Assembly (NCBI RefSeq): GCF_009649845.1
Contig: NZ_WJIE01000004.1
Location: 558,001 to 622,000 of the forward strand
Direction of reading: 5' to 3'
Length of the DNA: 64,000 nucleotides
Origin: Polyangium spumosum
Lineage (GTDB): Bacteria > Myxococcota_A > Polyangia > Polyangiales > Polyangiaceae
Within the stretch, counting starts at the first letter, position 1. Every line of letters begins with the position of its first letter. The notes under the pieces are model-generated. The model was not told where the DNA came from, did no database searches, and saw nothing but the letters and a program-made list of their open reading frames with translations. Position numbers and translations under genes: made by a program. This document shows, one piece after another, positions 34,108-58,067 of this stretch.

Positions 34108-35553
34108 TCAGCCGCCGCGATGCCGTGAAATCGCGAGCCGATAGAGCGCCTCGTACTGGCGGCTCGCGTAATCCCAGCCAAACGGCTTTTTCATCGCGCG
34201 CCGCTGCATCGAGCGGAAATGCGCCGGGTGCGCGCGGTAGATCCACGCCGCTTCGAGCACCGCGTCCGCGAGCACGTGCGGCGAGAGGTCGAGGAACTTG
34301 AAGCCCGTCGCCATGTGCTCGACCGTGTCGTCGAGCCCGCCCACCGCGCGCACGACGGGCAACGTGCCGTATCGCTGGCTGTAGAGCTGGTTCAGCCCGC
34401 ACGGCTCGTACCGCGAGGGCATCACGAAGAGGTCCGCGCCCGCCTCGATGCGGTGCGCGAGCGCGTCGTTCATGCCGATGTGCGCGCGGAATCGATCCGT
34501 CGAGTGGCCGAGCCGCGTGAAGAGATCCTCCGCCCAGCTCTCGCCCGATCCGAGCACCACGACCTGCACGTCGTGCTGGAGCAGCGCGCCGAGCGCGCCC
34601 GCGAAGACGTCGATGCCCTTCTGGTTCACGAGCCGGCTGATCAGGCCGATGAGCGGCACGTCCGGGCGAACCGGCAGCCCCATCTCGCGCTGCAGCTCCG
34701 CCTTGCAGAAGGCCTTGCCTTGCAGGTCGTCGGCGTCGAAATGCGCGGCGAGGTGACGATCGGTCGCGGGGTTCCAGATCTCGTCGTCGATCCCGTTCAG
34801 GATGCCGATCACGTCGCTGCCCCGCTCGCGCAAAGCGCCTTCGAGCCCGTGCCCGCCCTCTTTCGTCTGGATCTCCTGCGCGTATTTCGGCGAGACGGTC
34901 GAGAGCATCGTCGAGAAGTTGATGCCGCCCTTCAGGAGGTTCAGTTTGTCGTAGGACTCGAGCGCGCGGTGGTGGAAGACGTCCCAGCCGAGGCCGGTCT
35001 GGAAGAGCTCGTTTTTGTCGAACCAGCCCTGGTAACCCATGTTGTGGATCGTCAGGACCGACGCGGCCCCGCCGAGGGGCGAACGAGCGTCGAGCGTCTT
35101 CAAATAAATGGGGACGAGGCACGTCGGCCAGTCGTGCACGTGCACGACGTCGGGGACGAACCCGAGCGCGCTCGCGAGCCGGAGCGCGCCGCGCGAGAGG
35201 AACGTGAAGCGCGCGAGGTTGTCGCGATAATCCCCGTTCGAATCGTTGTAGATCCCGGCGCGATCGAAGAGCTCGTCGTGCTCGAGCAGGTAGACACGCG
35301 CCGCGCTCTCGCCGAGCCGCGACTCCCACACCGCGCCCCACGCCTCGCCGTGTCCGACGGGCACGCCGAGCGAGATCGGCAGGCGTTTGGCCGGGTGTTT
35401 CTTGGCTACGCGGTAACGCGGCATCACCGTGCGTACGTCGTGGCCCCGCGCGGCGAGCGCGATGGGGAGCGCGCCGGCCACGTCCGCCAGGCCTCCTGTC
35501 TTTGCAAAAGGGACACACTCGGAGACGACGTTGAGGATGCGGAGGCGAGGCAT
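34108..35553 (-). CDS. glgA: Glycogen synthase (ADP-glucose type)
   Basis: A 481-residue GT5 glycosyltransferase that adds glucose from ADP-glucose to the growing alpha-1,4-glucan. The KTGGLADV motif near residue 15 binds the ADP-glucose phosphates; the C-terminal lobe has the usual Gly/Glu region (FVMPSRYEPCGLNQLYSQRYGTLPVVRAVGGLDDTVE). The length is normal for GlgA. I chose ATG 35553 (MPRLRILNVVSE), since residues upstream are not conserved. The gene starts 19 bp after boxR on the same strand, so it may be transcribed from the box promoter; whether this is meaningful is doubtful, since glycogen and benzoate metabolism are not usually linked. Confidence 0.93.
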   Translation of the reverse strand: MPRLRILNVVSECVPFAKTGGLADVAGALPIALAARGHDVRTVMPRYRVAKKHPAKRLPISLGVPVGHGEAWGAVWESRLGESAARVYLLEHDELFDRAGIYNDSNGDYRDNLARFTFLSRGALRLASALGFVPDVVHVHDWPTCLVPIYLKTLDARSPLGGAASVLTIHNMGYQGWFDKNELFQTGLGWDVFHHRALESYDKLNLLKGGINFSTMLSTVSPKYAQEIQTKEGGHGLEGALRERGSDVIGILNGIDDEIWNPATDRHLAAHFDADDLQGKAFCKAELQREMGLPVRPDVPLIGLISRLVNQKGIDVFAGALGALLQHDVQVVVLGSGESWAEDLFTRLGHSTDRFRAHIGMNDALAHRIEAGADLFVMPSRYEPCGLNQLYSQRYGTLPVVRAVGGLDDTVEHMATGFKFLDLSPHVLADAVLEAAWIYRAHPAHFRSMQRRAMKKPFGWDYASRQYEALYRLAISRHRGG

Positions 35554-35572
35554 GCAGGTAACTGACGGACGG

Positions 35573-36400
35573 TTACGGGAGCCTACCACGGCTCGCCGCG
35601 TTGACGATCTTCACGAGCCGGTCGGTCGAGCGTTCGAGGCCAAGCGCCGAGGTGTCGATGACGTGGGCCGCGCGCTCGTAGAGGGCCCTACGAGCGCGTA
35701 GGATCGCGCGCAGCTCCTCCATCGCCGCTGGCCGGCTCGCCATGGGCCGCGCGTCGCCCTGGTCGATCACGCGCTGAAAGTGGTCCTCCGGTCGCGCGCG
35801 CAGCCACACGGTCACGGCCTCGCGGCAGAGCAGCTCGAACGTCTCGTGAGCGGTCACGAGGCTGCCGCTCGTCGCGACGATCCCGCGATCGCCCCGCGCC
35901 ACGAGCCGCTCGAGCTCCTCGCGCTCGAGCCTGCGGAAATACGCGGTGCCGTGCATCTCGAAGATCTCGGTCAGGCTCATGCCGGCGCGCGCCACGACGA
36001 GGCTGTCGAGCTCCACGAAGGGCAAACCGAGGCGGACGGCCGCGCGGCTGCCCAGCGTGGTTTTTCCCGCCCCGCGCAGGCCGAGCAGCGCCACGAGCGG
36101 GCCCTTCGCCGAGCGCGTCGTCGTCGGCTCGGAGGGCGCGTCCGCGAGCAACGCCGAGGCCGACGTGCCGAGCGCGCGCGCGATCGCGTCGAGGCGAACC
36201 ACGGACACGTTCGCCTTGCCGCCCTCGACGAGCACCAGGAACCGCTCGCTCACGCCCGACGTGATCCCGAGGTCCCGGAGCGTCAAACCCGCCGCGCGCC
36301 GCCGCTCCCGCACCCGCTCGCCGAGCGCCTGGAGGAGGGGCGAGCCTTCGCCTTTTTCGGCGCCCTCCTCGCGCGTCTCGGGCTTCTTTCGGGCCGCCAC
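35573..36400 (-). CDS. boxR: BoxR-type regulator: XRE DNA-binding domain fused to shikimate-kinase-like domain
   Basis: A 275-residue regulator. Residues 22-85 are an XRE helix-turn-helix (LRDLGITSGVSERFLVLVEGGKANVSVVRLDAIARALG) and residues 100-270 a shikimate-kinase-like domain with Walker A GLRGAGKT (107-114). This fusion is the hallmark of BzdR/BoxR, which repress benzoate genes and release DNA when the kinase-like part binds benzoyl-CoA. The divergent boxC-boxB genes confirm the call. The GTG at 36400 is the only good start; it lies one base from an operator and at the predicted transcription start, so the mRNA may be leaderless. It would then also repress itself. No separate shikimate kinase role is likely. 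Confidence 0.9.
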   Translation of the reverse strand: MAARKKPETREEGAEKGEGSPLLQALGERVRERRRAAGLTLRDLGITSGVSERFLVLVEGGKANVSVVRLDAIARALGTSASALLADAPSEPTTTRSAKGPLVALLGLRGAGKTTLGSRAAVRLGLPFVELDSLVVARAGMSLTEIFEMHGTAYFRRLEREELERLVARGDRGIVATSGSLVTAHETFELLCREAVTVWLRARPEDHFQRVIDQGDARPMASRPAAMEELRAILRARRALYERAAHVIDTSALGLERSTDRLVKIVNAASRGRLP

Positions 36401-36401
36401 G

Positions 36402-36421
36402 TCATGAACTATATTTCATGA
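36402..36421. promoter_or_regulatory. Operator 1 (palindrome with TATA core), boxR side
   Basis: A perfect palindrome TCATGAA-CTATAT-TTCATGA (7-bp arms, 6-bp spacer) beginning 2 bases from the boxR start codon. It covers the boxR -10 box and the right arm overlaps the boxC -35. Together with operator 2, of the same form, it is the probable BoxR binding site. Confidence 0.75.
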
Positions 36422-36436
36422 AAGAAGGAGCATCAA
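36408..36436 (-). promoter_or_regulatory. Predicted sigma-70 promoter of boxR
   Basis: On the minus strand -35 TTGATG and -10 TATAGT are separated by exactly 17 bp. The -10 lies in the core of operator 1 and the -35 overlaps the left arm of operator 2. Transcription would begin about 36401, almost at the GTG. Confidence 0.6.
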
Positions 36437-36446
36437 GCAGTATATT
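36418..36446 (+). promoter_or_regulatory. Predicted sigma-70 promoter of boxC-boxB
   Basis: On the plus strand -35 ATGAAA (4 of 6 bases) and -10 TATATT (5 of 6) are 17 bp apart. The -10 lies in the core of operator 2 and the -35 overlaps the right arm of operator 1. Transcription would begin near 36453. A perfect TTGACA at 36449-36454 has no good -10. Confidence 0.5.
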
Positions 36447-36452
36447 GCTTGA
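36433..36452. promoter_or_regulatory. Operator 2 (palindrome with TATA core), boxC side
   Basis: A second perfect palindrome, TCAAGCA-GTATAT-TGCTTGA, with 7-bp arms and 6-bp spacer. Its centre is 31 bp (about three helical turns) from that of operator 1, so two dimers could bind one face of the DNA. Confidence 0.75.
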
Positions 36453-36485
36453 CACCCTTCCGTCCGGGTGATGGAGTTTCCGGCG

Positions 36486-38161
36486 ATGGGCATCGAGAGT
36501 GAAAGCAGCGGGGCCAAGGCGCCCGCCATCCGTTTCGAGACACATCCGAGCCGCTACAAGCACTGGAAGCTCTCGTTCGAGGGAGCGATCGCGCGGCTCG
36601 TGATGGATGTGGTCGAGGAGGCGCCGATGCGCCCCGGCTACACGCTCAAGCTGAACAGCTACGACCTCGGCGTGGACATCGAGCTCGCGGACGCGGTGGA
36701 GCGGCTGCGCTTCGAGCACCCCGAGGTGAAGGTCGTGATCGTCACGAGCGGGCAGCCGCGTATCTTCTGCGCCGGCGCGAACATCTACATGCTCGGCTCG
36801 TCGACGCACGCCTTCAAGGTCAACTTCTGCAAGTACACGAACGAGACGCGCCTCTCGCTCGAAGAGGCGTGCAGCGAGAGCGGCCAGCACTACGTGGCCG
36901 CGCTGAACGGTGTGGCCTCGGGCGGCGGCTACGAGCTCGCGCTCGCGTGCGAGAAGATCCTGCTCTGCGACGATGGATCGAGCGCGGTCTCGTTCCCGGA
37001 GACGCCGCTGCTCGCCGTGTTGCCTGGCACGGGCGGGCTCACGCGGCTCGTGGACAAACGCAAGGTTCGGCGCGATCTCGCGGACGTGTTCAGCACGCTC
37101 GCCGAGGGTGTGCGCGGCAAGCGCGCCGAGGAGTGGCGCCTCGTCGATCGTTCGATCCCCAAGAGCCGCTTCGATCAGGTGGTGATCGAGGAGGCGAACG
37201 CGATCGCCACGAGCGCGTCGGACAAGCAGGGCCCGGGCGTCACGCTCGCCCCGCTCGAGGTGAAGCGCTCGGAGGACGGCAGCAAGTACAGGGCCGAGTA
37301 CAAGTACGTCACGCTCGTCGTCGACAGGCAGACGCGTGTCGCCGAGCTCGAGGTGCGGGCTCCCGCGGGCGCGCCCGAGACGACGGTCGAGGCGCTGCAC
37401 AAGAGCGGCTCGGACGTGTGGGCGCTGCGCGCCTTCCGCGAGATCGACGACGCGCTGCTCGATCTGCGCTTCAACCACCCGGAGGCGGGCCTCGTGCTCC
37501 TGCGGACGAAGGGGGATCCCGAGGCCGTGCGTGCCGCGGATCGGGCGCTCCACGCGCTCCGTGACGACTGGTTCGCCCGCGAGATCCTGCTCAAGATGCG
37601 TCGCACCTTGAAGCGGCTGGATCTCACGGCGCGCAGCGTGTTCTCGCTCGTCGAGCCCGGCTCGTGTTTCGCGGGCTCTCTCTTCGAGCTCGCCCTCGCG
37701 GGCGACCGGACCTACATGCTCGACGGCGGCGACGATCCGCCCGTGATCGGGCTCTCGCCGCTGAACTTCGGCCCGTTCCCCATGCCGAACGGCCTCACGC
37801 GCCTCGAGACGCGGTTCCTGCACGATCCTTCCGCCGTGAAGCGTCTGGAAGGACAAACCGAGCTCGTCGACGCCGACGGCGCCAGGAAGCTCGGGCTCGT
37901 GACGTTCACGCCTGACGAGATGGACTGGGACGACGAGGTGCGGATCGCGGTCGAGGAGCGCGCGAGCCTCTCGCCCGACGCGCTGACGGGCATGGAGGCG
38001 TCTCTTCGATTCGCGGGGCCCGAGACGCTGGAGACGAAGATCTTCGGGCGTCTGTCGGCCTGGCAAAACTGGATCTTCCAGCGCCCGAATGCGGTCGGCG
38101 AGCGGGGCGCGCTCACCATGTACGGCCGGCCCGAGCGACCCGAATTCGACTGGAGGCGAAC

Positions 38162-38165
<4 letters not shown>
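36486..38165 (+). CDS. boxC: 2,3-epoxybenzoyl-CoA dihydrolase BoxC
   Basis: A 559-residue member of the enoyl-CoA hydratase (crotonase) family with two crotonase-like halves. BoxC opens the ring of 2,3-epoxybenzoyl-CoA, giving 3,4-dehydroadipyl-CoA semialdehyde and formate, in aerobic benzoate breakdown. Hallmarks are the block PSRYKHWKLSF, GYTLKLNSYDLGVDIELADA, FCAGANIYMLG, CKYTNETR and SFPETPLLAVLPGTGGLTR, which is close to known BoxC. The ATG at 36486 has GGAG nine bases upstream; in-frame GTG 36468 and ATG 36471 have no ribosome site. It overlaps boxB by 4 bp (GTGA). Expression should be controlled by BoxR through the double operator. Confidence 0.94.
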
Positions 38166-39601
<1,436 letters not shown>

Positions 39602-55958: not shown

Positions 55959-58067
55959 ATGGCGCAGTATACTTCTCTCAAGGCGCTCTCCGGCGCTCGT
56001 GGCACTTTTTATAGCCCCGGAGGAGCCCACGTTTATTTCGTCACCGATAACGGCAAGGTGAGCCGCGTCCGGTTCACGCACTCCGAGATCGTCGACCAGG
56101 GCGCGAGGCGAATCACCAAGTCCACCCTCACCCACAACCTCGACGGCGGCACGGACCTCGGGGATATTCGGTGGAGCAATACCCTCGCCCATTCGACCGG
56201 CGCCCTCCAATCGGTCGGCAACGCCCGCATCGCCGCGATGGCGGCGCCCCCTCCGGACGGCTACGCGAACGTCGCGGCCGACACGCTCGAAGAGCTCGCC
56301 ATCGCAGACACCGTGCTGCCCGAGGACGGCACCTCCTCGGAGGGCAATGCCTACGCCGTCCTGACCAGCAAGGGGAACCTCGCGAAGGTCCGCATCTACA
56401 AGGACACCTTGCTGAACCAGACCTGGATGGAGTGGGTCACCTACCGGCTCAGCAAGGAGCCGGAGGACGTGGGCACGGGCTTCGGCGCGCCGACGGATCT
56501 GATCATCAAGAGGAGCCCCGAGGACCTCCTCCTTTACGTGTGCGGCGTCGGCGATTTCGGCGGTTGCGTGTATGTCGCCTTCTCGTCCGCGGCGCTGCTG
56601 AAGCCCGATTTCGGGTGGAACCAGGAGTACATCATCGCCGACGGCCTCGATTCCCCGAAGCAGATGGTGCTCGCGGGCGACGATCGCACGATCTTGCTCG
56701 CCGACGGCGTCACGCTCTGGGCCATCGACTCGGACCTCTACACGCCGGCCGACAAGGTCGACCTCTTCGCGGGCGTCGCGTCTCCCCTCGGCGGGATCAG
56801 CGGCGTCGCGATCGCGAAGGACGGGGTCACCGTGTACCTCTCGAGCAGCACCGACAACAAGGTGCACGTCGGTCAGTTCGATCTCGACACGATGAAGCTG
56901 ACCCTCGATCCGGAGCCGCTCGCGCCGAGCGTGACCCTCGGCCCGGTGGGCACGCTGGCCTGGGCCGACGAGGAGCAGACCGCCCTGCTCGTCGCCGTGG
57001 GGGACGACCCCAATGGCAACAAATTGCTCCGCGTTCCCCTCTCGGATCCGGCCGACATGCAGGACCTGCTCGAGGGCACGGCGGGCGTCGGCGAGCCGCG
57101 CAGCGTCGAGCTCATCGGGCCCCAGCTCTACGTGATGACGAGCAGCGGCGGCGTCGGCGAGCTGAATTGCGGGTTGCCCATCGGCCTCGACGTGCCGCTC
57201 GGCATCGGCTTCGTGCCCTTCCAGTCCATCGTCCAGAGCGGCGAGTTCGAGGGCCTCGCGGACACCACGGACCTCGCCGGGTATTTCTTCAAGGTGCAGA
57301 ATGCGGCCTTCGGCGGCACGATGCATTTCCAGTTGAACCACGCGAAGGCCTACCAGGACGGGCATCGTTACTACCAGATCCGGTTCATCCAGAATGGCGT
57401 CGCCAAGGCGATGACCGCGTCCTTCACCGATGCCAAGTGGAGCCGCACGCTCCTGCGCTTCGAGCCCGCGGCGACGGCGGCGGTGACGGTGGGGAGCCGG
57501 ACGGGTTGTTACCCGGTCCGCGCGCCGGGCGATCTCTGGTACAACGCGCACCTCGGCGCGCTGCTCAACACGACGAGCCTGCCGAACGGCGTGCAGACGC
57601 TCGAGATCACGTTCCTCGACGAGAATGGCGTCGTCTTGGGGGTCTTCTCGCGGAAGATCCGGATCGAGAACGTGGGTTGCGGCTTGAAGTTCCTGAACTT
57701 CCTCATCAATGGGACGCCGCCGTCCTCGGCGTGCGGCGTGTACCAGTACGGGAGCAAGGACGATCCGGTGGTGCTCGAATTCGAGGCGACGTACCCGGGC
57801 ACGATGCCGGCGACCTACAGGCTCGATGTCCGCGTCGGATCGAAGCTGATCACCACGCAGAGCGGGATCTACGACCCGGAGAGCCCGCTCTTCAGCCGAT
57901 CGTTCGACCAGCTCCGCGATCTGATGGGCAAATGCAACATCGCCACGGTCTCCGCGTCGATGTGGATTCACCCGCGGGTGATCAACGGCCACCAGTTCAT
58001 CGGCGGCGCCGGCAAGGGCGCGGCCTTCTCGCTGGTGCCGCTGAGCTTCGACATCGACGAACCCTGA
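55959..58067 (+). CDS. Large protein of unknown function, propeller-like N-terminal half
   Basis: A 702-residue protein with no signal peptide or membrane helix. The first 400 residues carry short strand-rich units with Gly/Asp turns (LLLYVCGVGDFGGCVYVAFSS, MVLAGDDRTILLADGVTLWAIDSD, GVAIAKDGVTVYLSSSTDNKVHVGQFD), resembling a beta propeller. The second half looks like two immunoglobulin-like or jelly-roll domains (HFQLNHAKAYQDGHRYYQIRFIQNG, TYRLDVRVGSKLITTQSG) with several Cys. I do not know the family. ATG 55959 is fixed by AAGGAG at a good distance. It converges on the next gene, with a hairpin terminator between. Confidence 0.7.
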   Translation: MAQYTSLKALSGARGTFYSPGGAHVYFVTDNGKVSRVRFTHSEIVDQGARRITKSTLTHNLDGGTDLGDIRWSNTLAHSTGALQSVGNARIAAMAAPPPDGYANVAADTLEELAIADTVLPEDGTSSEGNAYAVLTSKGNLAKVRIYKDTLLNQTWMEWVTYRLSKEPEDVGTGFGAPTDLIIKRSPEDLLLYVCGVGDFGGCVYVAFSSAALLKPDFGWNQEYIIADGLDSPKQMVLAGDDRTILLADGVTLWAIDSDLYTPADKVDLFAGVASPLGGISGVAIAKDGVTVYLSSSTDNKVHVGQFDLDTMKLTLDPEPLAPSVTLGPVGTLAWADEEQTALLVAVGDDPNGNKLLRVPLSDPADMQDLLEGTAGVGEPRSVELIGPQLYVMTSSGGVGELNCGLPIGLDVPLGIGFVPFQSIVQSGEFEGLADTTDLAGYFFKVQNAAFGGTMHFQLNHAKAYQDGHRYYQIRFIQNGVAKAMTASFTDAKWSRTLLRFEPAATAAVTVGSRTGCYPVRAPGDLWYNAHLGALLNTTSLPNGVQTLEITFLDENGVVLGVFSRKIRIENVGCGLKFLNFLINGTPPSSACGVYQYGSKDDPVVLEFEATYPGTMPATYRLDVRVGSKLITTQSGIYDPESPLFSRSFDQLRDLMGKCNIATVSASMWIHPRVINGHQFIGGAGKGAAFSLVPLSFDIDEP

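Follow-up and report, generated by a model that had tools for sequence, protein, structure and literature searches.

In Polyangium, the spacer between the divergent genes boxR and boxC carries two palindromes, op1 and op2, which are likely to form a BoxR operator pair repressing boxR and the boxCB operon jointly, with op1 placed over the predicted −10 of boxR and op2 over the predicted −35 of boxC. The benzoate-pathway repressor BoxR is almost certainly the protein that binds them, judging from the motif and from the genes beside it. The features concerned are given below by their positions in the window, which is the whole 64-kb stretch of DNA that was analysed.

35573–36400, minus strand: boxR, start codon GTG 36400; XRE helix–turn–helix plus shikimate-kinase-like domain (NF006015, 293 bits, cutoff 204)
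36402–36421: op1, BoxR-type palindrome TCATGAACTATATTTCATGA, arms TCATGAA and TTCATGA around CTATAT, core 36406–36417; the conserved boxR-proximal site
36408–36413, minus strand: predicted boxR −10, TATAGT, inside op1 at its centre (hexamer scan)
36431–36436, minus strand: predicted boxR −35, TTGATG, overlapping the inner arm of op2 (hexamer scan; partly conserved)
36433–36452: op2, BoxR-type palindrome TCAAGCAGTATATTGCTTGA, arms TCAAGCA and TGCTTGA around GTATAT, core 36437–36448; the conserved boxC-proximal site
36449–36454, plus strand: predicted boxC −35, TTGACA, overlapping the outer arm of op2 (re-assigned by comparison)
36472–36477, plus strand: probable boxC −10, TGGAGT, a weak hexamer (3/6) with an extended TGA at 36469–36471; spacer 17
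36486–38165, plus strand: boxC, 2,3-epoxybenzoyl-CoA dihydrolase (TIGR03222, 798 bits, over the cutoff)
38162–39601, plus strand: boxB, benzoyl-CoA 2,3-epoxidase subunit, overlapping the end of boxC in the target operon (TIGR03225, 757 bits, over the cutoff)

Two palindromes between boxR and boxC

An earlier note on this DNA had described two perfect palindromes with centres 31 bp apart, and this description was confirmed: the 7-bp arms are perfect in both op1 and op2, the distance corresponds to approximately three helical turns, and both sites, lying in a boxR–boxC spacer of 67 bp, have an ATAT core and the same arm pattern. The GC content of the operator region was 47%, compared with 70% for the window. 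The joint op1–op2 pattern had no further match in the 64 kb even when three mismatches were allowed (0 expected), and the exact sequence GCANTATANTGC occurred a single time in the whole 10.76-Mb genome, as op2.

Perfect symmetry was rejected as a mark of significance, because 7-N6-7 palindromes are common in the window (19, an ordinary number against 7–17 in mononucleotide shuffles) and because it is a peculiarity of this strain. In the other five Polyangium the arms of op1, which reads TCATGCA...TTCATGA, pair at 6 of 7 positions, and those of op2, which differs at its outermost left base, at 6 of 7 at most. A terminator-like match on op2 was the palindrome itself.

Conservation of the site pair

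Comparison loci were fetched with BoxR from relatives and from a genome collection. Among the 103 loci obtained, 87 had divergent boxR and boxC, and 61 were left after near-identical spacers had been dropped; these 61, drawn from Polyangiales and from contigs bearing labels such as Planctomycetota, Vicinamibacteria and Blastocatellia, are related to each other, and counts over them are not counts of independent events. A comparison of intergenic regions across relatives, of the kind that the earlier note had proposed as a check, revealed that the pair recurs in this set. Nearly all 61 loci carry two sites of the form GCA-NTATAN-TGC, at a spacing of 28–34 bp in 56 and of 31 or 32 bp in 42, and the five spacings outside this range (22, 41, 42, 43 and 96 bp, or 2.1, 3.9, 4.0, 4.1 and 9.1 turns) were all near whole turns. 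Pairs with both sites at 8/10 or better and 28–34 bp apart were present in the boxR–boxC spacer of 54 of the 61 loci, and none was found outside this spacer in 236 kb. The choice of the best two matches per spacer raises the site scores somewhat; the best scores in shuffled spacers were 5–7 with few 8s, and of 1220 trials 45 reached 8/10 and 1 reached 9/10. In three loci with the two genes on the same strand (L035, L045 and L050), pairs 30–31 bp apart lay upstream of boxR.

No 9/10 site was present in the loci of six BoxR homologs that do not have boxC next to them. The BoxR homologs of L034, L040, L041 and L054, which come from planctomycete MAGs and have neither boxC in the stretch examined nor a 9/10 BoxR site, may regulate something else.

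Identity of the regulator

The consensus pooled from 122 sites was ATGCACTATAGTGCAT (ATGCA-C-TATA-G-TGCAT). Because this consensus equals the BoxR/BzdR motif published for Betaproteobacteria, a palindrome with 6 nt between the TGCA elements (Suvorova and Gelfand 2019, PMC6449761), op1 and op2 are best read as a BoxR operator pair and not as a new kind of operator. The betaproteobacterial sites are almost always multiple and mainly 3–5 turns apart (PMC6449761), and the sites described here likewise were of the TGCA-N6-TGCA type with CTATAG as the consensus centre, occurred in multiples at whole-turn distances and lay beside boxR and upstream of box genes. The novelty that the earlier note had seen in this layout needs to be corrected, motif, multiplicity and spacing having already been published for betaproteobacterial BoxR.

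The boxR product has an N-terminal helix–turn–helix (PF13560/PF01381) and a C-terminal shikimate-kinase-like domain (PF01202), and an alignment showed that the helix–turn–helix segment SxRxL...E.G..N.S recurs in beta-type BoxR proteins. The BoxR-type neighbour gene, the motif match and the linkage to box genes bear out the proposal that one regulator serves both operators, almost certainly BoxR. It is very improbable that another regulator binds the operators while BoxR acts elsewhere. Although a literature search turned up no binding studies of a myxobacterial BoxR, and the GAA half-sites of op1 in this strain are off consensus, the motif is identical to the characterised BoxR/BzdR motif, the sites are tightly linked to boxR–boxC without paired sites elsewhere in the loci, and sites are absent around the BoxR homologs that do not neighbour boxC.

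The BoxR core score was 10/10 for op2 and 8/10 for op1, both half-sites of op1 in the window being GAA compared with the consensus GCA. Here op1 has lost a C that the other five Polyangium retain, and A accounts for 17% at that half-site position over all sites, which is what would be expected if op2 were the only strong BoxR site in this strain and a decayed op1 repressed boxR weakly or only by cooperativity. We regard such decay as doubtful, though worth keeping in mind: in Polyangium the right arm of op1 has GAA as a rule, this half-site is also found in other genera, and the symmetrical loss still leaves a perfect palindrome. We prefer to treat both op1 and op2 as BoxR operators.

Predicted promoters and start codons

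A scan for sigma-70-like promoters found only ATGAAA-17-TATATT on the plus strand and TTGATG-17-TATAGT on the minus strand (0.0 expected), so that the hexamers predicted in the earlier note for the two promoters are both present as named. For boxR, their proposed placement on the operators was supported. TATAGT lies at the centre of op1, and in 45 of the 61 loci the first in-frame boxR start codon came 2–9 nt past the op1 core; TTGATG overlaps the inner arm of op2 in this genome, and a −35 TTG at the matching spacing was poorly conserved across loci (16 of 61). Since the GTG at 36400 is only 7 nt past the predicted −10, boxR is probably leaderless, its mRNA starting at or beside the start codon. 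Not every boxR would be leaderless at op1, because 16 of the 61 loci have no in-frame start within 9 nt of it. No ATG, GTG or TTG was seen in the boxR frame near op1 in L013, L014, L088, L089, L095, L097 and L113, where boxR may carry a leader or use an unusual start.

For boxC, the conserved layout was a different one from that of the earlier note, which had placed its −35 (ATGAAA) in op1, its −10 (TATATT) in op2 and its transcription start at about 36453, giving a leader of about 32 nt with GGAG before ATG 36486 and letting each operator cover one element of each promoter. These hexamers match at 9 of 12 positions with a 17-bp spacing and 0.0 expected in the scan, and the GGAG 8 nt ahead of ATG 36486 leaves room for them in Polyangium. 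However, TTG was found at the op1 −35 position in 1 of the 61 loci, with a mean of 2.39 matches compared with 2.31 in shuffled sequences; ATGAAA drifts to ATGAGC within Polyangium, whereas TTGACA downstream is invariant there; and the TATA centre of op2 is explained by BoxR recognition, since op1 has it as well. Directly after the core on the boxC-side arm of op2, TTG was present in 51 of the 61 loci, the counts for the three remaining arms being 0, 1 and 12 of 61. A −35 would explain this one-armed TTG, while a preference of BoxR could not, the motif being symmetric. At 17 bp past the TTG, T was found in 39 and A in 32 of these 51 loci and the TATAAT-like score was highest. Polyangium and several relatives bearing TTGAC have a weak −10 hexamer but a TGn ahead of it, an arrangement seen in extended −10 promoters. 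The boxC ATG usually followed the −10 by 6–13 nt and the op2 core by 32–42 nt (50 of 61 loci; most often 36–39, mode 37). In five loci (L031, L032, L036, L037 and L049) the core is TATCTTGC and the TTG stands 4 bp earlier, and in four of these the ATG was at 32–34 instead of the modal 37. The layout with the boxC −35 in op1 and its −10 in op2 is consequently unlikely, and we favour the one in which the outer arm of op2 overlaps the predicted −35 and a −10 follows 17 bp downstream, ahead of the ATG.

ATG 36486 is the preferred start of boxC over GTG 36468 and ATG 36471. Few Shine–Dalgarno motifs were found ahead of the boxR or boxC starts across loci. A distance of 6–10 nt from −10 to start without such a motif agrees with boxR in this genome and with the majority of loci for either gene; boxC is probably leaderless too. 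The −10 of boxC in Polyangium is weak, and the GGAG within it could be the ribosome-binding site of boxC instead of part of the −10.

Neighbouring genes and the rest of the genome

Directly downstream of boxR lies a glgA-type glycogen synthase gene (34108–35589, minus strand), whose frame overlaps the end of boxR. All six Polyangium, as well as L008 and L009, have the order boxR–glgA, and glgA may share the BoxR-controlled transcript. No boxA over the curated cutoff was found in the whole genome, although boxB and boxC are present, and a different protein may serve the BoxB epoxidase as its reductase. A benzoate-CoA ligase over the cutoff is encoded on another contig, C23, on which no near-consensus BoxR site was found. 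A wider BoxR regulon was rejected, as one-mismatch sites elsewhere look like background (23 places in all, compared with 67 for a reversed control pattern). Within the window, an isolated and unpaired 9/10 match to the BoxR core, GCAGTATACTTC at 55964–55975, stands two bases after an ATG and is probably due to chance.

Proposed regulation

Sequence comparison provided the site pair, the motif identity, the spacing, the positions relative to the start codons and the conserved boxC −35; we further infer binding by BoxR, its response to benzoyl-CoA, cooperativity and the leaderless transcripts. We propose the following scenario. When benzoyl-CoA is absent, BoxR would occupy both operators, one dimer on each, on the same face of the DNA and about three turns apart. 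On op1, it would hide the −10 of boxR, its own and probably leaderless gene, along with the start region; on op2, it would hide the −35 of boxC through the outer arm and overlap the −35 of boxR through the inner arm. RNA polymerase would be excluded from both sides, and the boxCB operon and boxR would be repressed together. Once benzoyl-CoA was bound by the shikimate-kinase-like domain, BoxR would come off the DNA, and the pathway would be induced together with its own repressor; that both genes are relieved in this way is suggested by analogy with Azoarcus BzdR and BoxR (PMC6678401, PMC4424350). The earlier note had seen a compact two-way switch in the arrangement. Its joint control of both genes is also predicted here, but 'switch' overstates the case, as the layout predicts joint repression and joint induction, a circuit that would amount to negative autoregulation plus operon repression and not to a two-state switch. 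The phase of the spacing fits dimers on one face, and the boxR promoter, rather than cooperative binding, could be what sets the 31 bp.

We lean towards a more general reading, in which one BoxR operator pair has fused, across Polyangiales and in some further phyla, with two leaderless promoters placed back to back, op1 serving as the boxR −10 and the outer arm of op2 as the boxC −35. Site sequence, −10 and start codon would then shift together, and approximately 85 bp would accommodate the operators along with the promoters and translation starts of the two genes. Such promoter overlap would be economical and seems to be undescribed in the literature searched, where nothing on point was found on leaderless transcripts in myxobacteria or on box regulation there. 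The arrangement would extend the logic of the BoxR regulon beyond Betaproteobacteria, to Polyangia and further phyla, serve as a clear comparative example of operator and core promoter sequences that evolve as a single unit, and provide op1 and op2 as ready target sites for benzoyl-CoA-responsive sensors. It also makes the specific prediction that boxR and boxC are both transcribed without 5′ leaders.

Comparison with known systems

In Azoarcus sp. CIB, several dimers of BzdR bind cooperatively and benzoyl-CoA is the inducer (PMC6678401), as we propose for Polyangium. The PN promoter of that strain is also alike in having repressor sites over the −10 and the start region and TGCA-N6-TGCA in OR2 and OR3 (PMC6678401). 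However, PN has three operator regions over some 180 bp, whereas Polyangium has just a pair of sites with 31 bp between their centres, and a 75-nt leader, a site for the activator AcpR and the requirement of OR2/OR3 for derepression are peculiar to PN (PMC6678401).

With the BoxR/BzdR operators of Betaproteobacteria (PMC6449761), the Polyangium pair shares the palindrome, the multiple sites several turns apart, the position beside boxR and the box operon, and a regulator combining XRE and shikimate-kinase-like domains. In contrast to Betaproteobacteria (PMC6449761), no further paired BoxR site was found in the Polyangium genome with the patterns used. Betaproteobacterial boxR is mostly co-oriented with boxCBA, the divergent partner being boxD/bclA (PMC6449761), whereas boxR and boxC diverge in Polyangium. 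Furthermore, the Polyangium sites, compared with those of Betaproteobacteria (PMC6449761), would double as core promoter elements of genes that are probably leaderless.
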